NCBI RefSeq assembly: GCF_030167905.1
Contig: NZ_JARGNA010000010.1
Location: forward strand, 124,001-188,000
Direction: 5' to 3'
Source of the DNA: Flavobacterium terrisoli
GTDB lineage: Bacteria > Bacteroidota > Bacteroidia > Flavobacteriales > Flavobacteriaceae
Length of the DNA stretch: 64,000 nucleotides
Positions within the stretch are counted from its first letter, which is position 1. Each line of letters starts with the position of its first letter. A program made the position numbers and the translations under genes. The notes under the pieces were generated by a model. It was not told the origin of the DNA. It worked only from the letters and a program-made list of their open reading frames with translations, and did not search any database. Below are positions 37,304 through 44,103 of this stretch, piece by piece.

Positions 37304-39109
37304 ATGAAAAAAATTACACTCCTATTGACATTTCTTTTAGTGTCTGTTATTTCCGAAGCACAAATTATCGCTTCACAAAACTTCAATACTTCCCTTGGCT
37401 GGACTTCAAGCACTGCAGGTGCATGGGCTAGAAGAACCACTGGCGGCGCTCCTGCTTGTTCGCCTTTTTCCGGTACAGGTATGGCTCGTTTTAATTCTTA
37501 CGATTTGGCTGCCGGAACCACTGCAAGATTAACTTCGCCTGCAATAGCTTTTGCTGGTGCAACTTACAGGGTAAAATTTAAAATGTTCAGGGACAACGCT
37601 TATGCAGGTGATGCTGATAGCGTGAAATTGTATTACAATACTACCGGTGGTGCTGGTGGAACATTGTTTGGGACTGTGAATCGTTCCAGATCATTAGCTC
37701 CAACTGAAACTGAAGATGGATGGTACTCTTATTCTTTTGATATCCCTGGAACACCTAATGGTAATGGATACATTCACTTTTTAGGAACTTCACAGTATGG
37801 AAACAATATATTTATTGACGAGATTACTATTGAACAAATTCCTGCTATCGATGGAGAATTAAGATTGATGAATGTAAATTCATATGTGCCTGTTGCGGCT
37901 ACCTCTGTTTCGGGATCATTTAAAAATTCAGGATCTACAACAGTAACTTCTTTTGAAGCAAACTGGCAAGCTGATTCAGGAACCATTTACACACAAACAT
38001 TCAGCGGTTTGAACATCGCTGCCGGACAAACCTATAATTTCACACAAACTGATTTATGGAATACCACACCGGGACTTTATTCTTTAAAACTTTGGATTAG
38101 CAATATTAATAATGCCGGGAATGATGCTGACGCGACAAATAATTTAATTACAAAACCAGTTTCTGTATACAGCAATACTTCAACCCGTTTTGCTCTTTAT
38201 GAAAAATTCTCAAGTTCAACTTGTGGTCCATGTTATTCTTTTAACACCAATAGTTTTAATAATTTCTTAGCCGCTCATGAAGAAGAGTTCGCATTCATTA
38301 GCTATCAGGTAAACTGGCCTGGAGCAGGAGATCCTTATTATACAACGGAAACAGGAACAAGAGTAGGTTACTATGGAATTAGTGGTGCACCAACATTATT
38401 GGTTGACTCAAAAGACGGTACAAACAATGAGGTAACCGGTAATTTCAACTCTAGTACAGAATTGGCAACCAAATTGACTCAGGCAACTGCTGTTCCTTCT
38501 TATTTTACTATCGCGGCTTCAAAAACTTTAACCGGAAGCACCATGGATGTTCAGGTGGCTGTTACTCCATTTGTTACAGGAACCTATAAATTATATGCAG
38601 CGGTTGTAGAAAAAAACACCTACAACAATGTTGCGTCAAATGGTGAAAATGAATTTCACAATGTAATGATGAAAATGATGCCTGATGCTAATGGAACTAC
38701 ACTTTCCTGCGTTCATGATGTAGTATCGGTAACTAATTTACAAGTAGATTTAAGCGCTACAAATATCGAAGAATTATCAGATTTGGAAGTTGTTGTATTT
38801 GTTCAAAATCCGGCTACTAAAGCAATCATGCAGGCAAAATATGCTTCAGATGAGGCATTGGCAACACCTGACTTCAGTACGGTTTCGAAAATCAAATTGT
38901 ATCCAAATCCATCAACCGGAATCGTTAGAATCTCGACAGACATTCCTGTTGACATTCAAATTACAGATGTTACAGGTAAACAAGTTTTAACTGTTTCTCA
39001 AGCTACAAGCGAGACTGTTATTGATTTATCAGCGATGCAAAATGGCGTATACTTTGCCAAAATTACTGGCGAAAACGCTACAAAAACACAAAAAATCTTA
39101 TTACAATAA
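37304..39109 (+). CDS. Secreted Omp28-type thioredoxin-fold protein with T9SS sorting domain
   Basis: The product has 601 aa. A signal peptide (MKKITLLLTFLLVSVISEAQ) is followed by a carbohydrate-binding-like or MAM-like beta domain (about residues 20-185) and an Ig-like repeat (about 190-290). Then comes an Omp28-type domain with a redox CGPC motif (C307-C310, context YEKFSSSTCGPC) and a PTLLVDSKDG segment. It ends with a type A T9SS sorting domain (last 75 residues, YPNPSTGIVRI). It would be an extracellular or surface thiol-disulfide protein. It is followed by another T9SS cargo gene and faces a redox gene group on the other strand. Confidence 0.82.
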   Translation: MKKITLLLTFLLVSVISEAQIIASQNFNTSLGWTSSTAGAWARRTTGGAPACSPFSGTGMARFNSYDLAAGTTARLTSPAIAFAGATYRVKFKMFRDNAYAGDADSVKLYYNTTGGAGGTLFGTVNRSRSLAPTETEDGWYSYSFDIPGTPNGNGYIHFLGTSQYGNNIFIDEITIEQIPAIDGELRLMNVNSYVPVAATSVSGSFKNSGSTTVTSFEANWQADSGTIYTQTFSGLNIAAGQTYNFTQTDLWNTTPGLYSLKLWISNINNAGNDADATNNLITKPVSVYSNTSTRFALYEKFSSSTCGPCYSFNTNSFNNFLAAHEEEFAFISYQVNWPGAGDPYYTTETGTRVGYYGISGAPTLLVDSKDGTNNEVTGNFNSSTELATKLTQATAVPSYFTIAASKTLTGSTMDVQVAVTPFVTGTYKLYAAVVEKNTYNNVASNGENEFHNVMMKMMPDANGTTLSCVHDVVSVTNLQVDLSATNIEELSDLEVVVFVQNPATKAIMQAKYASDEALATPDFSTVSKIKLYPNPSTGIVRISTDIPVDIQITDVTGKQVLTVSQATSETVIDLSAMQNGVYFAKITGENATKTQKILLQ

Positions 39110-39117
39110 TACCTATG

Positions 39118-39145
39118 GGCAGGAAATTCAATTGAATTTCCTGCC
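39118..39145. repeat. Perfect 28-bp palindrome between T9SS genes
   Basis: The arms ggcaggaaattcaa and ttgaatttcctgcc abut with no loop. It lies just after the 37304 gene. Only a weak T-rich stretch follows, so it is probably a weak terminator or an mRNA-stabilising hairpin between the two T9SS genes. Confidence 0.6.
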
Positions 39146-39164
39146 TTATTAAAACAACACTATC

Positions 39165-39887
39165 ATGAAGAGAATTTTACCTTTAGTTTTCATTTTTATC
39201 GGAATTACAAGTTATTCCCAAATTTCCTTATCAAGACACAATGGAACTCCAATTACAGACGGTCAGGTAATTGCATTTAATACCATTGCTTTTCCTGCTG
39301 CCGAAATGGATTTTTATGTTAGAAATTTATCTACTACTACAACTACCAATGTAAAAGCAATTTGCGAATCATTGGTAAACACCGACGGAAGCGGCTTTGA
39401 GTTTTGTTTTGGAAACGAATGCCTTTCTTATGTTGAAGAAGGAGAAAGATATCCAAGCACACCTGTAGTATTGGGTCCAAATGGCGTAAATGGAGATTTT
39501 GACCATTTCCTGAATACCACTGCCGGTGCCGGCACTCAGGACTATGTTTTCAGATTTTATCAAATCAACGGAAGTGGTGTTGAAGTTGGCAATTCAATTA
39601 CGATGACTTACAGATATGATGCTACTTTATCTGTTGATGACATCAATCAATTGGAAACTTCAGGCGTAATCGTTAAATCTACTTTGGTTAGCAATGAATT
39701 GTCTTTAGACGTTCTTACTCCAAGCCAAATGGATATGTTTGATATAACAGGGAAATTGGTAAACAACAAAAAATTGCAATACGGATTGCAAACGGTTAAC
39801 GTTTCAAATCTAAGCCGTGGTGTTTATGTTTTGAAATTCACTTCTGCGGAAGGAAGAGTTTCTACCAAAAAAATCTTGAAGGATTAA
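39165..39887 (+). CDS. T9SS cargo protein of unknown function
   Basis: The product has 240 aa with a signal peptide (MKRILPLVFIFIGITSYSQ). A beta-rich domain occupies about residues 20-150 with a conserved pair of Cys in ICESLVNTDGSGFEFCFGNECLSY. A T9SS type A sorting domain ends it (VFDITGK-like MFDITGKLVNN, then LSRGVYVLKF, KKILKD). The domain family was not recognised. It is likely in one operon with the Omp28-type gene upstream (55-bp gap with a palindrome). Confidence 0.78.
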   Translation: MKRILPLVFIFIGITSYSQISLSRHNGTPITDGQVIAFNTIAFPAAEMDFYVRNLSTTTTTNVKAICESLVNTDGSGFEFCFGNECLSYVEEGERYPSTPVVLGPNGVNGDFDHFLNTTAGAGTQDYVFRFYQINGSGVEVGNSITMTYRYDATLSVDDINQLETSGVIVKSTLVSNELSLDVLTPSQMDMFDITGKLVNNKKLQYGLQTVNVSNLSRGVYVLKFTSAEGRVSTKKILKD

Positions 39888-39905
39888 TTCTTCATACTGT
39901 TTTAT

Positions 39906-39936
39906 AAAAAAGGCTCCAAAATTTGGAGCCTTTTTT
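39906..39936. terminator. Bidirectional terminator before diheme cytochrome gene
   Basis: The stem aaaaaaggctccaaa/tttggagcctttttt (15 bp, one-base loop) lies between convergent genes. Confidence 0.9.
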
Positions 39937-39937
39937 A

Positions 39938-41017
39938 TTATAATGAATTGATCCAGTCTTCTATGAGTTCGACTCCTTCATCATGCCTTATGGTTCTTCC
40001 TAATGGCGGCATCATATAGAAATTATCCGTTTCTGTATTGACTCTGTAATGAAGTATCGATTGGCCAACATTATTTCGATAAACGATTTTCCCAACATAT
40101 CCTGCCAAGGAATGCTCAGCTGGCATTCCAACACCCATATTCTCTATATCTGTCGTTAAATTAAAGGCAAACCTTAAACCAAAGTGATCCGCTTCGCCAT
40201 CATCTTTGTGACAATGGGCACAATTGACATCGAAATAGGAACGCACTCTCAAATCTAAGGGTTTAGACGCATCTTTATAATCAACAACGGCTGTAATGCT
40301 GTTTGGCAAATTATCTTCCAAATAACCAAACTGAATTAGTTTTTTCAATTGGTTTTTTGTTCCATTGGCATAACTAAAGTTGCTGTTCAGATTTTGAGGC
40401 TTTATCCCGATAGGCGTTGCGCCACCGCTCAATAAGCCGTGACATCTGTTACAATCAACCATTGCTGACGGAATCCTGTAATTTATACTTCTGATTACAT
40501 CATTTTCATCGCGCCAGGAAACTGCCGTTTCAGAACCCGCTATGGTTAAAAAAGCTTCTGTTTGTTCATCATTCCACACATATTCCACAAAAATCCATCC
40601 GTCATTTTGGCGAATCATAAGCCTTGTTTCGATTATTCTCGTGGTATTCCCGGGCTGAACATTATTGTAATAGAAATTTTTGATAAGCGCTGATCCAACC
40701 GGAAGGTTTAGTACATTTCCGTCGCCGTCATAAGTCGCTTTGAGTCCGTTTGGCAACCAAATAAAACGCTTCTTTTGGGCATAATCAGAAAAGAGCTCAC
40801 TGATTGGTTTATAGGGCAAAACACCATAGGAAGGCTTTTGATCTTTTAAATCGCCCTCAAAAAAATGGTAATCCGAAAGCTTAGGATAAGGAACCTCATT
40901 CAGGTTTAACTCAACCGGCGATACTTGTATAGGGGTATAATCGTCTTTATTACAAGAAATAAAAAAACACAAAATTCCCAGTAAAAAAAGTCCCTTTATG
41001 TTTTTTAAATTTTTCAT
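39938..41017 (-). CDS. SO2930-type diheme cytochrome c lipoprotein
   Basis: The product is a 359-aa lipoprotein. The signal sequence has its lipobox Cys at residue 22 (LCFFISCNKDD). Two heme-c motifs are C189-N-R-C192-H193 and C266-A-H-C269-H270, with an axial Met in MMPPLGR. The body (FSDYAQKKRFIWLPNG) fits the SO2930 diheme family described in Shewanella and Bacteroidota. It is probably in the outer membrane or periplasm and could pass electrons to or from the thiol proteins encoded beside it. It is last in a three-gene minus-strand operon. Confidence 0.85.
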   Translation of the reverse strand: MKNLKNIKGLFLLGILCFFISCNKDDYTPIQVSPVELNLNEVPYPKLSDYHFFEGDLKDQKPSYGVLPYKPISELFSDYAQKKRFIWLPNGLKATYDGDGNVLNLPVGSALIKNFYYNNVQPGNTTRIIETRLMIRQNDGWIFVEYVWNDEQTEAFLTIAGSETAVSWRDENDVIRSINYRIPSAMVDCNRCHGLLSGGATPIGIKPQNLNSNFSYANGTKNQLKKLIQFGYLEDNLPNSITAVVDYKDASKPLDLRVRSYFDVNCAHCHKDDGEADHFGLRFAFNLTTDIENMGVGMPAEHSLAGYVGKIVYRNNVGQSILHYRVNTETDNFYMMPPLGRTIRHDEGVELIEDWINSL

Positions 41018-41018
41018 T

Positions 41019-42692
41019 TTAGAAAGAGGTGTTTAGTGATAACGACACTCCGGAACTTTCAGGAACATTTCTGCAAACACCACCTACACAAACTAGTCCT
41101 CCGCGTTGTCTGCCATAACTCAAAGCAATTCGGGTAGAATTTTTTCTGAAAGCTCCGCCTAAATTGTAGTAATGATTTTGCTGGTATTCTAAATCGTTGC
41201 CATAATTATACAAATCAGTTACATAGCATGACCATTTAGAGTTGATGTTGAACTCAACCGTTGAAGCAGCCCAATTTTTCTTGTCGTAATCTGCCCACAT
41301 GTGCTCTCCAACAACACGTAAAGAGCGTATTGCTGTAAATTTATAAGTTGCTTCTGCCGCCAAAACATTGGTACGTATCTCGCCGTCTGTTCCTTCAACC
41401 ATTTTTTTGTTATAATATTGATTGATATAACTAAAAGCGGATTGCCATTTGTTGTTCCATTTTTTGGTAATCTCAATATTGTAATCGGTGTAATATCTTT
41501 TTCCAAAACTCAGGAAATCGGTCTCATAATTCTGCGGATTAAAAATATAGTATGTACCGCTCAAAGCATTCCAGTTAGAACAGTTGAAAGCGATTTTCAT
41601 TCCGTTTTTCCCGCCAAGTGCTGTTCCTTTCTTTATATCATAAAAAACATCAATCTGTCCGCCAATTTCACCTGCTTTGACCAAATCCTGATCGGCTAAA
41701 AATACGCTTGGTTGTGCCTGATACACATAAATGTTGGCCAAATTATAATGCTGTTGTTTGGTCAAACTCGGAATAAAATTCATTATCCTGTCATTAAACT
41801 CATTGCCTTTAGCGCCTCTTTCAGAAAAGAAACTCATGTTTTCCAATCTTCTGAAAGTCGCATCAATACCAAATCCCTTTTTGGAATACCCGGTGTTAAG
41901 AAGCAAAGCGCTTCCCGGTTTTACCAATCGGTTGTTTACCTGATTGGTCACCTGAACAACGGCGTCCTCTGATTTATAATTCATTTCAGTAGAAGCATAA
42001 AACGAATTGTGGGTGAAGTTTATTCTTCCGGCGACGCCATAAGTCAGATTATTGAAATCCTGTACCGGGAGATTTGTTTTTTCATCTCTTCCAACATAAG
42101 AAAACCCTAGAGTCAAATCTGAAGTCTGGAATTTGAAAATTGTTTTTAAATCAAACTCTAAATCCGCTCCATAAATGTCGCTTCTGGCTACATCAAAACC
42201 GGTTCTTTGTCTTCCGTAAAGGGTTTTTATGGTAATATAATTTACCGGTTTGAAGATTATTCTTCCACCGCGCAAAGCATTATTTATGCCCAATGCTCTG
42301 TCTTCCCAGCTTCTCAACAATAATCCGCTTCCAAACTGCTCATAAAAATACCCCGCTGTGATATCAATTTTCTCTGTTTTAAATTGAACAAAATATGTTG
42401 CCACATTGGTTCCGTTGTACTTTGGGTTCATGTTTAGCAAAGCGTTTTGCTCATAACTTTCCCCTTGGATTCCGGCGGACCAGTTTTTGTATTTATAATT
42501 CAGAAACAGGTAATTGTTAGACCTAACCGGATCTTCAGGATGTACGGTTGGATTATTGAACTCATCTTTCAGTCCTTTGTCGTTCAGATACCATTGGGCA
42601 TTCGATTCGAATCCGCCAGAGAAAACACCACTGTTTTGTGAAAATGAAATGACAGGTAATAATAGGAAAAGAAAATAAATTGCTTTTTTCAT
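41019..42692 (-). CDS. Outer-membrane beta-barrel protein (DUF6029-like)
   Basis: The product has 557 aa and a signal peptide (MKKAIYFLFLLLPVISFSQ). Its start, GVFSGGFESNAQWYLND, then the pattern of alternating strands and the C-terminal SLSLNTSF, fit the DUF6029 family of Bacteroidota outer-membrane proteins. It starts directly at the end of the TlpA gene and ends one base before the cytochrome gene, so the three are one operon. It is likely the membrane-embedded part of a redox or transport unit. The substrate is unknown. Confidence 0.78.
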   Translation of the reverse strand: MKKAIYFLFLLLPVISFSQNSGVFSGGFESNAQWYLNDKGLKDEFNNPTVHPEDPVRSNNYLFLNYKYKNWSAGIQGESYEQNALLNMNPKYNGTNVATYFVQFKTEKIDITAGYFYEQFGSGLLLRSWEDRALGINNALRGGRIIFKPVNYITIKTLYGRQRTGFDVARSDIYGADLEFDLKTIFKFQTSDLTLGFSYVGRDEKTNLPVQDFNNLTYGVAGRINFTHNSFYASTEMNYKSEDAVVQVTNQVNNRLVKPGSALLLNTGYSKKGFGIDATFRRLENMSFFSERGAKGNEFNDRIMNFIPSLTKQQHYNLANIYVYQAQPSVFLADQDLVKAGEIGGQIDVFYDIKKGTALGGKNGMKIAFNCSNWNALSGTYYIFNPQNYETDFLSFGKRYYTDYNIEITKKWNNKWQSAFSYINQYYNKKMVEGTDGEIRTNVLAAEATYKFTAIRSLRVVGEHMWADYDKKNWAASTVEFNINSKWSCYVTDLYNYGNDLEYQQNHYYNLGGAFRKNSTRIALSYGRQRGGLVCVGGVCRNVPESSGVSLSLNTSF

Positions 42693-43172
42693 TTATTTGA
42701 GTGATTTTAATTTTTCAAGCAATTCGACTTCATTTCCGGGCACATATCCATTTTGAACATGTACAATTTTATTGTTTTTTACAACTATGGTATACGGAAC
42801 GTTTACGATGGACAGCGCTCTTTTCAAATCCTGATTGGAATCCAGGAGTATGGCAAAATTCCATTCTTTTCCGCTGGTTAATGGCTTTACTCTTTTTTGT
42901 GTTCTTGAATCATCGATAGAGATTGCGACAACTTCAAAATTCACATCTTTTTTCCATTCATTTTGCACATCATTGATTTCATCCAACTCATTGATGCAAG
43001 GTGTGCACCAGGTTGCCCAAAAAGAAAAAACATACAACTTGTCTTTCTCGGAATAATCTTTGGTTAGTGATACTTTTTTCCCTTCTAAGTTGGCAAGGGT
43101 AACATCGGGTAGATTGGTCTGCGCATTTAAATTTAATCCTATTAAAAATGCGCAAATAATAAATTTAGTCAT
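42693..43172 (-). CDS. TlpA-family thiol-disulfide oxidoreductase
   Basis: The product is a 159-aa periplasmic thioredoxin-like protein. A signal peptide spans about residues 1-17 (MTKFIICAFLIGLNLNAQ). The redox motif is W55-C56-T-P-C59 in FWATWCTPC, and the cis-Pro region is IVNVPYTIVV. It should reduce disulfides or supply electrons to cytochrome maturation or to the neighbouring Omp28 proteins. The start at MTKF was preferred over an upstream start that would add a 28-residue basic extension and hide the signal peptide. Confidence 0.88.
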   Translation of the reverse strand: MTKFIICAFLIGLNLNAQTNLPDVTLANLEGKKVSLTKDYSEKDKLYVFSFWATWCTPCINELDEINDVQNEWKKDVNFEVVAISIDDSRTQKRVKPLTSGKEWNFAILLDSNQDLKRALSIVNVPYTIVVKNNKIVHVQNGYVPGNEVELLEKLKSLK

Positions 43173-43272
43173 GGTTTGGTAGTTATTTTGCACAAATAAA
43201 TGAATAATGCGATAGAATATGAAATTTTTTTCATTTTTTTGCATTACAATGTTCATTTTGAAACGAATAATT

Positions 43273-44103
43273 ATGAAAAAATCAATTTACCTAAGCTTAT
43301 TCTTCCTTTCAGCCCTTTTCATCTCTTGTGGTGATACTAACGTAGTTGAAAATATTCCTGACGGTGGTGTAGATGCTCCGCCTATTGCCGGCTATTTCAA
43401 AAAAAGAGTTTTGATTGAAGATTATACCGGTACATGGTGTGGAAACTGTACCCGTGTGGCTTATGCCATTGATCAGGTAAAAGCCCAAAGTGATAAAGTG
43501 GTTACGGTTGCCATTCACAACGGGAATGACCCTTATCATTTTGAAGGCATTGCACCGCTTAAAAATTTAATTTCTCCCGATTATCCATTGGCTTTGCCGG
43601 TTTCCCGATTGAATAGAATGAACGTTTGGACATTCCCTGAACCAACCAACACACAGGAAGCTATAGATTTAACCGGAAACAATTCAGGTTTAGGTCTTGC
43701 CATGAGCTCAACCATTGAAAACGGAATGGTGAACCTTGATGTAAACATGAAATTCGCCTTGAATTTTTCTAATTTGAAATTGGTGGTTTATTTATTGGAG
43801 GACAATCTTGTATACATGCAACGCAATTATACTACTTATTATGATGCCGTAAATCCTATTCCGGCCTATACGCACAATCATGTATTAAGAAGCTCAATGA
43901 CCGATATTCTTGGAGATGCCATCACCGAAAACACAACGGCAGGAAGCACCGTAACAAAGCATTTTTCTATTCCGGTTCCGGCGAATGTGGCCAATGCCGC
44001 CAACATTAATTTTGTGGCGTTCCTTGTAGGCAATGACAATGTTGCAATAAACGCAAGAGCTGCTGAAGCAAATGAAGAACAGGAATTTGAAGAAAATCCA
44101 TAA
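43273..44103 (+). CDS. Omp28-type lipoprotein with CGNC redox motif
   Basis: The product is a 276-aa lipoprotein with lipobox Cys 19 (LFISCGD). The Omp28-like thioredoxin domain has C56-G-N-C59 in IEDYTGTWCGNC, and a barrel-like or Ig-like second half. It is divergent from the TlpA-barrel-cytochrome operon (100 bp apart) and resembles the T9SS protein at 37304. It is probably a surface or periplasmic thiol-disulfide carrier. The start at 43273 gives a lipoprotein signal; the longer frame from 43219 does not. Confidence 0.8.
   Translation: MKKSIYLSLFFLSALFISCGDTNVVENIPDGGVDAPPIAGYFKKRVLIEDYTGTWCGNCTRVAYAIDQVKAQSDKVVTVAIHNGNDPYHFEGIAPLKNLISPDYPLALPVSRLNRMNVWTFPEPTNTQEAIDLTGNNSGLGLAMSSTIENGMVNLDVNMKFALNFSNLKLVVYLLEDNLVYMQRNYTTYYDAVNPIPAYTHNHVLRSSMTDILGDAITENTTAGSTVTKHFSIPVPANVANAANINFVAFLVGNDNVAINARAAEANEEQEFEENP

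Follow-up and report, generated by a model that had tools for sequence, protein, structure and literature searches.

Why do six genes for envelope proteins, three of them with thioredoxin-type CxxC motifs, lie side by side in Flavobacterium terrisoli? They occupy positions 37304 to 44103 of a 64,000-nucleotide stretch (hereafter the window) of contig NZ_JARGNA010000010.1, positions 124,001 to 188,000, which lies on contig C2 of a 3.5 Mb genome in our set. An earlier note on this DNA had described the cluster and suggested an electron or disulfide route from a periplasmic TlpA protein through a diheme cytochrome to surface Omp28 proteins. All six genes are present where the note placed them; an Omp28 gene stands on either side, and CGPC at residue 307, CTPC at 56 and CGNC at 56 were found in their three proteins. 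Across Bacteroidota, the constant core of the cluster is made up of TlpA, a DUF6029 barrel and Omp28, a thioredoxin-fold protein of the surface; a small protein of the type IX secretion system (T9SS) often joins them. Seen directly were the linkage of the genes, their joint presence and loss, the conservation of cysteine pairs, predicted folds and sorting signals in the sequence. Judging from sequences and structural models, the core may best be read as a trans-outer-membrane thiol-exchange module for surface proteins, a reading that we hold tentatively and place a little short of an even chance.

Three of the genes form a tight run on the minus strand, in which the TlpA-like thioredoxin-fold protein (159 amino acids (aa), 42693..43172), the DUF6029 outer-membrane barrel (557 aa, 41019..42692) and the cytochrome, a diheme lipoprotein resembling SO2930/TIGR03806 (359 aa, 39938..41017), follow one another with 0 and 1 base between neighbours. 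Since they share a strand and this spacing, they likely form one operon, as had been proposed. The gene of the Omp28 lipoprotein (276 aa, 43273..44103, plus strand) diverges from that of TlpA across a 100-base gap. At the other end, also on the plus strand, lie the genes of an Omp28-type surface protein of 601 aa (37304..39109) and of a PorA-like T9SS protein of 240 aa (39165..39887); these two converge on the cytochrome gene.

To follow this arrangement beyond the window, we read the neighbourhoods of 20 family loci, 20 phylum loci, 80 named loci and 20 further phylum loci, and searched two genome draws, one of 80 genomes from the family and one of 148 from the phylum. The named loci are the best 80 of at least 582 picked by the peptide pattern of a cysteine hairpin in DUF6029; they lean towards Flavobacteriaceae and, being picked by that pattern, are no evidence for the motif itself. 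Open reading frames (ORFs) came from an in-house caller, which misses split genes.

The earlier note had named absence of clustering in relatives beforehand as an outcome that would overturn its idea. We found the opposite: TlpA, DUF6029, Omp28 and often the T9SS pair cluster in relatives. Four of the 80 named loci have no upstream DNA; of the 76 testable ones, 75 have TlpA immediately upstream of DUF6029, 71 have Omp28 no more than 4 ORFs away, and 36 have a relative of the 240-aa protein no more than 6 ORFs away. The gap between TlpA and DUF6029 has a median of 5 bases (77 pairs, named loci). A profile-based recount over all 80 named loci gave TlpA in 77, Omp28 in 75, the PorA-like protein in 40 and the cytochrome in 5. 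The corresponding figures were 17, 16, 8 and 0 in 18 family loci (two of the 20 have no recognised DUF6029 ORF) and 18, 16, 6 and 0 in the first 20 phylum loci. Of the 20 further phylum loci, 19 show TlpA (all but L143) and 19 show Omp28 or a redoxin as a neighbour (all but L145); the cytochrome was not seen among their displayed ORFs. Clustering of the same genes throughout the phylum, the cytochrome excepted, exceeds chance. We rejected local synteny as its whole cause because the flanking genes change between loci while the core stays: among displayed ORFs, a relative of ECH was present in 1 of 80 named loci and a relative of DUF3109 in 5 of 80.

The module appears patchy inside the genus, since DUF6029 or Omp28 was found in none of the six same-genus genomes of the phylum draw, yet occurs in several named Flavobacterium loci. 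One named locus, L048, carries a 1135-aa protein with no Pfam match (L048:5842-9249) between DUF6029 and the PorA-like gene, and ORFs of the same length, their sequences uncompared, stand at this position in L050 and L116. The L048 contig is labelled as a metagenome-assembled genome of Sphingobacterium thalpophilum; its DUF6029 is 67% identical to that of the window and its gene order is Flavobacterium-like, so that the label is perhaps a binning or labelling error.

These counts bear directly on the route from TlpA through the diheme cytochrome to surface Omp28. As an extracellular electron route it draws on the operon layout of the window and on the mature start of the cytochrome, CNKDDY, which fits the surface signal C-X-K-(D/E)2 (available part of PMC5080379). 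The full signal is found in only two of six operon cytochromes (the window and L043). The gene itself is present in 5 of 80 named loci (L043, L044, L045, L049 and L053) and 0 of 38 other loci; the five are labelled Flavobacterium, Flavobacteriaceae or uncultured Bacteroidetes, and their DUF6029 proteins are 65-87% identical to that of the window. The cytochrome family is common in its own right: 32 of the 80 family-draw genomes match it at more than 150 bits, 18 of the 32 without DUF6029, and the window genome holds three copies, two of them at another place. The overlap with DUF6029 is weak (14 of the 32 strong-match genomes, odds 3.9, p 0.01) and was not read as linkage. On these grounds the cytochrome was rejected as a core member and is treated as an optional part of the operon. 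Almost every relative that has the core lacks the cytochrome, which refutes the cytochrome route as a general mechanism, and we regard this route as very improbable.

The window cytochrome carries two CxxCH motifs (at 189 and 266) and scores below the TIGR03806 cut-off (268.4 vs 313.3 bits, positions 3-314 of 314). No solved relative was found by sequence up to E 1. The other two copies, both SO2930-type diheme lipoproteins, lie on contig C15 of the window genome (L123:6653-13233), each followed by a secreted-looking protein of 676 or 685 aa; the first of these proteins was scanned and showed FG-GAP, UnbV/ASPIC and T9SS domains. The pairing of a cytochrome with a secreted-looking protein is thus repeated. 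Part of a second cytochrome, scanned with Pfam, gave no match.

Between the cytochrome gene and the convergent T9SS genes lies a palindrome with A and T runs (39906..39936, unstranded), which separates the two units. By eye it reads as a likely bidirectional terminator; the program scan did not list it. A sigma-70 promoter scan gave 22 matches vs 24.2 in shuffled sequence, thus no excess, and a Bacteroidota -7 promoter pattern was not found in 43100-43300.

Do the remaining genes also come and go together? DUF6029 is present in 22 of 80 family-draw genomes (two as short remnants) and in 42 of 148 phylum-draw genomes. Omp28 genomes carry it far more often, in 18 of 19 cases in the family draw (Fisher 4e-13) and 29 of 31 in the phylum draw (Fisher 2e-18); relatives share descent, so these values overstate independence and lend the thiol-exchange reading less than they seem to. 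Joint decay and replacement are events separate from shared descent. The one exception of the family draw, G011, has Omp28 matches with in-frame stops, including a remnant of the 601-aa type; DUF6029 is absent from this genome and TlpA was not seen beside the Omp28 remnants. Its remnants of both Omp28 types lie at L124:7135-9300, a module in decay. Conversely, four family genomes have DUF6029 without Omp28: G022 has a DUF3179 lipoprotein there, G044 is divergent, and G042 and G078 hold remnants. In a further family genome, the DUF6029 gene is split over two adjacent frames (L020, G064:C5:20401-22061), possibly by a recent break or a sequencing error.

Replacement is seen in the phylum draw, where 13 DUF6029 genomes lack a PF11551 match. 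In the thirteenth (L142), a neighbour matches the Omp28 profile; the other 12 belong to a single lineage, f21, in which TlpA and DUF6029 are followed by two redoxin genes with CxxC. Both redoxins are present in 11 of the 12 genomes and one in the twelfth (L135), identified by Pfam in L042, by a CPHC pattern in L041 and by comparison with those of L042 in the remaining ten. In L042, the one tested, the start of the first redoxin resembles a lipobox, and Pfam finds a T9SS tail on the second. In f21, a different thioredoxin-fold pair thus occupies the Omp28 position, which gives the strongest hint that the module needs a thioredoxin-fold surface partner, although such a partner is not universal.

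The 240-aa protein follows the same pattern. Full-length relatives occur in 12 family-draw genomes, all 12 with both DUF6029 and Omp28. In three genomes (G030, G038 and G065) its gene lies on a different contig from DUF6029 and each time near an Omp28 match, which ties it to the set beyond mere adjacency.

What could such a set share? Each core part has one nearly invariant cysteine pair, as the aligned rows, chosen by best label and length, make plain: the TlpA pair is present in 112 of 113 (the exception is a second TlpA copy in L056), the Omp28 CxxC in 97 of 97 and the pair of the 240-aa family in 48 of 48, with a spacing of C-x3-C or C-x4-C. At the C-terminal end of DUF6029 the pair takes the form C-x-G-G-x-C; in the window it is C535 and C540, in a CVGGVC hairpin (codons 535-540, 41073..41090, minus strand) that is conserved in loci found by Pfam profile. 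In such loci C-x4-C is present in 36 of 37 DUF6029 ORFs (37 of 39, kept by length) and in 20 of 20 found later; in the exception, L031, the final part of DUF6029 is in a different frame. The envelope thiol theme of the earlier note thus stands, and more strongly than it was put, because the barrel and 240-aa pairs are conserved too, while the proposed route through the cytochrome is not supported. The note had missed C535/C540 of the barrel, C81/C86 of the 240-aa protein and the likeness of the latter to PorA.

The window DUF6029 matches PF19494 over its full length (687 bits, positions 1-538 of 538; cut-off 27 bits). Its structural model (predicted local distance difference test (pLDDT) 91.5, predicted template modelling score (pTM) 0.86) shows 24 long strands when those of only 3-5 residues are disregarded. 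The gaps between strands average 16 residues after odd strands and 4 after even ones, and the cysteine hairpin sits in the long gap between strands 23 and 24, where local confidence is 79-87. Barrel termini are usually periplasmic; given this, and since the long gaps follow odd strands, the long loops and the cysteine hairpin should face outwards, and the pair is predicted to be on the surface side. The top VIA fold match was the FimD pore (Z 17.7, 380 aligned residues, root-mean-square deviation (rmsd) 4.7), followed by OccK (Z 17.2) and AlgE (Z 14). The model is that of a wide barrel, and such matches say nothing on function. In a search of the PDB with the DUF6029 profile, the top matches were recA chains (E 7e-6), which we rejected as spurious because no single stretch passes alone; everything below was at E 0.12 or worse.

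A wide barrel also invites the explanation that DUF6029 forms a pore resembling Wzi or an usher, for export or uptake of a polysaccharide or another substrate, and that the thiol proteins merely serve this pore. The modelled folds lend this some support, as FimD/PapC, OccK and AlgE pores are its best matches, and they show no function. The Wzi barrel has 18 strands, whereas the DUF6029 model has 24 long ones. The genes that stay near DUF6029 consistently encode thiol proteins; the remaining neighbours are mostly unannotated. DUF6029 is named in one paper among the accessible texts, as a possible polysaccharide porin: an HHpred remark there ties Wzi barrel homologues to DUF6029 and to a possible polysaccharide role, and a heading of the same source mentions 18-stranded barrels (PMC9603273). 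We consider a pore of this kind improbable. Compared with chaperone-usher pores (FimD, PapC), DUF6029 shares a wide barrel, at a sequence identity of only 10% and with OccK pores scoring nearly as well.

The layout further recalls the MtrCAB conduit, with a periplasmic redox protein, an outer-membrane barrel and a surface redox protein; the Mtr barrel was Foldseek rank 38. Here, however, the conserved redox groups are cysteine pairs and not haem chains, and the barrels have no demonstrated relation. An MtrCAB-type system has conserved multihaem cytochromes on both the periplasmic and the surface side of its barrel, whereas the window offers one non-conserved cytochrome with two haem motifs.

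On the periplasmic side, the TlpA-like protein has AhpC-TSA/Redoxin domains (71.7 bits) and a WCxPC motif (CTPC at 56, given a start at 43172). It falls below the cut-offs of all 13 NCBIfam families listed for it, among them ResA (62.8 against 170 bits), TlpA (54.4 against 230) and DsbE (36.2 against 123). By eye it has a signal peptide without a lipobox, and among 113 aligned TlpA rows a single one shows a lipobox-like pattern. Proteins of the TlpA type usually receive their electrons from DsbD/CcdA; the window genome contains a 667-aa DsbD-like frame. DsbD/CcdA with TlpA, ResA or DsbE forms an inner-membrane thiol relay, with which the window set shares a TlpA-fold periplasmic thiol carrier with WCxPC. 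That relay crosses the inner membrane, whereas in the window set the membrane protein is a barrel of the outer membrane and carries a cysteine pair itself.

On the surface side, both Omp28 proteins match PF11551 (104.7 bits for the lipoprotein and 41 for the 601-aa protein; cut-off 34.9), and the lipoprotein scores below the NCBIfam NF033782 cut-off (80.3 vs 150 bits). The 601-aa protein has its CGPC at 307 and a T9SS type A tail; it and the 240-aa protein both match Por_Secre_tail (55.6 and 38.2 bits; cut-off 27 bits). The lipoprotein has a lipobox with C19 and, given a start at 43273, its CGNC at 56. Omp28 lipoproteins have a mean of 1.66 acidic residues at positions +2 to +6 (n=50) vs 0.84 in other lipobox ORFs of the same loci (n=45; p 2e-5), an enrichment in sequence that supports their surface exposure without proving it; the mature start of the window protein, CGDTNV, is a weak fit. 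Of 39 large neighbours listed for the 240-aa gene, those labelled Omp28 lipoprotein or DUF6029 being left out, 30 carry CxxC.

Among the nearest characterised counterparts is the Porphyromonas gingivalis thioredoxin protein HBP35, itself of the T9SS type; according to the available part of PMC2907840, it reduces insulin via its CxxC. It is a surface thioredoxin with an active CxxC, as the window proteins may be; it has a weak match to the Omp28 lipoprotein (E 0.0008, residues 37-82) and a T9SS C-terminal domain as in the 601-aa protein. It differs in having been studied as a haemin-binding protein, and the same part of the source names no barrel or TlpA partner for it (PMC2907840). Surface thioredoxins of Muribaculaceae have been proposed to have roles in oxidative stress and with iron, in a paper whose main text, as far as available, makes no mention of TlpA (PMC13404670). 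A TlpA protein of P. intermedia and thioredoxins have been listed among iron-dependent genes in the accessible part of PMC10434189; we could draw no link from them to the TlpA-DUF6029-Omp28 set.

The 240-aa protein consists of an Ig-like domain with the conserved C81/C86 followed by a T9SS tail, which is the make-up of the PorA family. Its model (pLDDT 89.9) has the N-terminal domain of PorA (PorA-N, 6kjk) as top VIA match (Z 11.6, rmsd 3.0, 123 of 134 residues aligned), the next over the same domain reaching 9.2. Searched against the PDB up to E 10, the domain profile likewise matches PorA and nothing else (E 0.0038), and the two cysteine pairs align; no Pfam family up to E 0.01 spans the whole domain. 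Several observations count against the link: by Foldseek alone PorA ranks 38 for this model, behind pilins and others; a distant relative in L028, searched alone, finds no PorA; and the cysteines of the L023 protein are 12 residues apart, vs 4 or 5 elsewhere. T9SS-type proteins with weaker profile matches stand beside TlpA or one gene off in L023, L025, L027, L028, L030 and L035. The L035 protein (L035:6863-8350, 495 aa) matches the PorA-like domain profile three times along its length and carries a T9SS tail; its gene adjoins those of TlpA, Omp28 and DUF6029.

PorA of P. gingivalis thus shares with the 240-aa protein a small Ig-like domain before a T9SS tail, the fold and the aligned cysteine pair. 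The difference is one of setting: relatives of the 240-aa protein adjoin Omp28-type genes, often near TlpA-DUF6029, in other Bacteroidota, whereas PorA homologues were found by BLAST only in Porphyromonas, as stated in the available part of PMC7712824. The likeness in fold, sequence and cysteine pair makes it conceivable that the PorA-like protein is a surface sensor, which would read a redox or ligand state set by TlpA, the barrel and Omp28 and signal inward as PorA does; the same part of that source reports that PorA affects PorXY-SigP signalling (PMC7712824). We think this unlikely to be the main role of the set: the PorA-like gene is near the barrel in only 40 of 80 named loci and present in 12 of 22 DUF6029 genomes of the family draw, and the link in sequence to PorA is one weak profile match.

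How, then, might the core work? The core genes (TlpA, DUF6029, Omp28-type and often PorA-like) would encode one outer-membrane thiol module. Periplasmic TlpA, held reduced by an inner-membrane DsbD-type protein, would meet the wide DUF6029 barrel, and thiol-disulfide exchange could take place through or at the barrel via its conserved C-x4-C hairpin. This exchange would keep the surface Omp28 lipoprotein and its T9SS cousin in a working redox state, and these thioredoxin-fold proteins would in turn reduce or reshuffle disulfides of surface proteins; the PorA-like cysteine pair would probably be their client or a sensor. The diheme lipoprotein may have joined the operon in a small Flavobacterium-like group, perhaps as an electron outlet or inlet. 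Contact between the parts, redox activity and the direction of flow are what we infer here.

The main rival is a folding set, in which TlpA and the surface thioredoxin-fold proteins make or correct disulfides of the barrel and of T9SS and other surface proteins, with no transfer across the outer membrane and with the cysteine pairs of DUF6029 and of the PorA-like protein as structural bonds. The models agree with it, as the barrel pair is in a short predicted hairpin and the 240-aa cysteines are at neighbouring predicted strands; so does the position of TlpA directly before DUF6029. We take such a set to be a serious though rather unlikely explanation. By itself it leaves unexplained why most loci keep a thioredoxin-fold surface partner, even where Omp28 has been replaced, and why Omp28 and DUF6029 occur together and disappear together.

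Several of our own results weigh against thiol exchange across the outer membrane. If the modelled barrel is right, surface-side cysteines would be hard for periplasmic TlpA to reach unless TlpA enters the lumen, and the hairpin pair looks equally like a plain structural disulfide. hbp35 complements an E. coli dsbA mutant (work cited in the accessible part of PMC2907840), which fits an oxidant as well as a reductant and also favours the folding set. In three loci, the Omp28 position upstream of TlpA-DUF6029 is filled by a different lipoprotein, one that lacks CxxC (L019:6663-7721, L106:7445-8488 and L111:7439-8479; DUF3179 by Pfam in L019, the only one tested), and no Omp28 or redoxin neighbour was recognised in L030, L034, L073, L119 and L145. 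Lastly, two phylum genomes with a weak Omp28 match, under the Pfam cut-off, have no DUF6029.

The open-licence literature, as far as it was accessible, yielded no description of a TlpA-DUF6029-Omp28 set. If surface thioredoxins of Bacteroidota, HBP35 among them, are reductases, they must be supplied with electrons, and no source was found named in the searchable literature. A concrete candidate is a conserved barrel that itself carries a cysteine pair and is placed between periplasmic and surface thioredoxin-fold proteins. In its boldest form, possible but in our judgement well short of an even chance, the proposal is that of an outer-membrane counterpart of DsbD: a barrel whose redox-active C-x4-C would pass thiol electrons from periplasmic TlpA to surface thioredoxin-fold proteins, by which Bacteroidota would control extracellular disulfides. 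If this is true, DUF6029 gains a setting, the PorA family extends beyond Porphyromonas, and Bacteroidota have a haem-free route for reducing power across the outer membrane.

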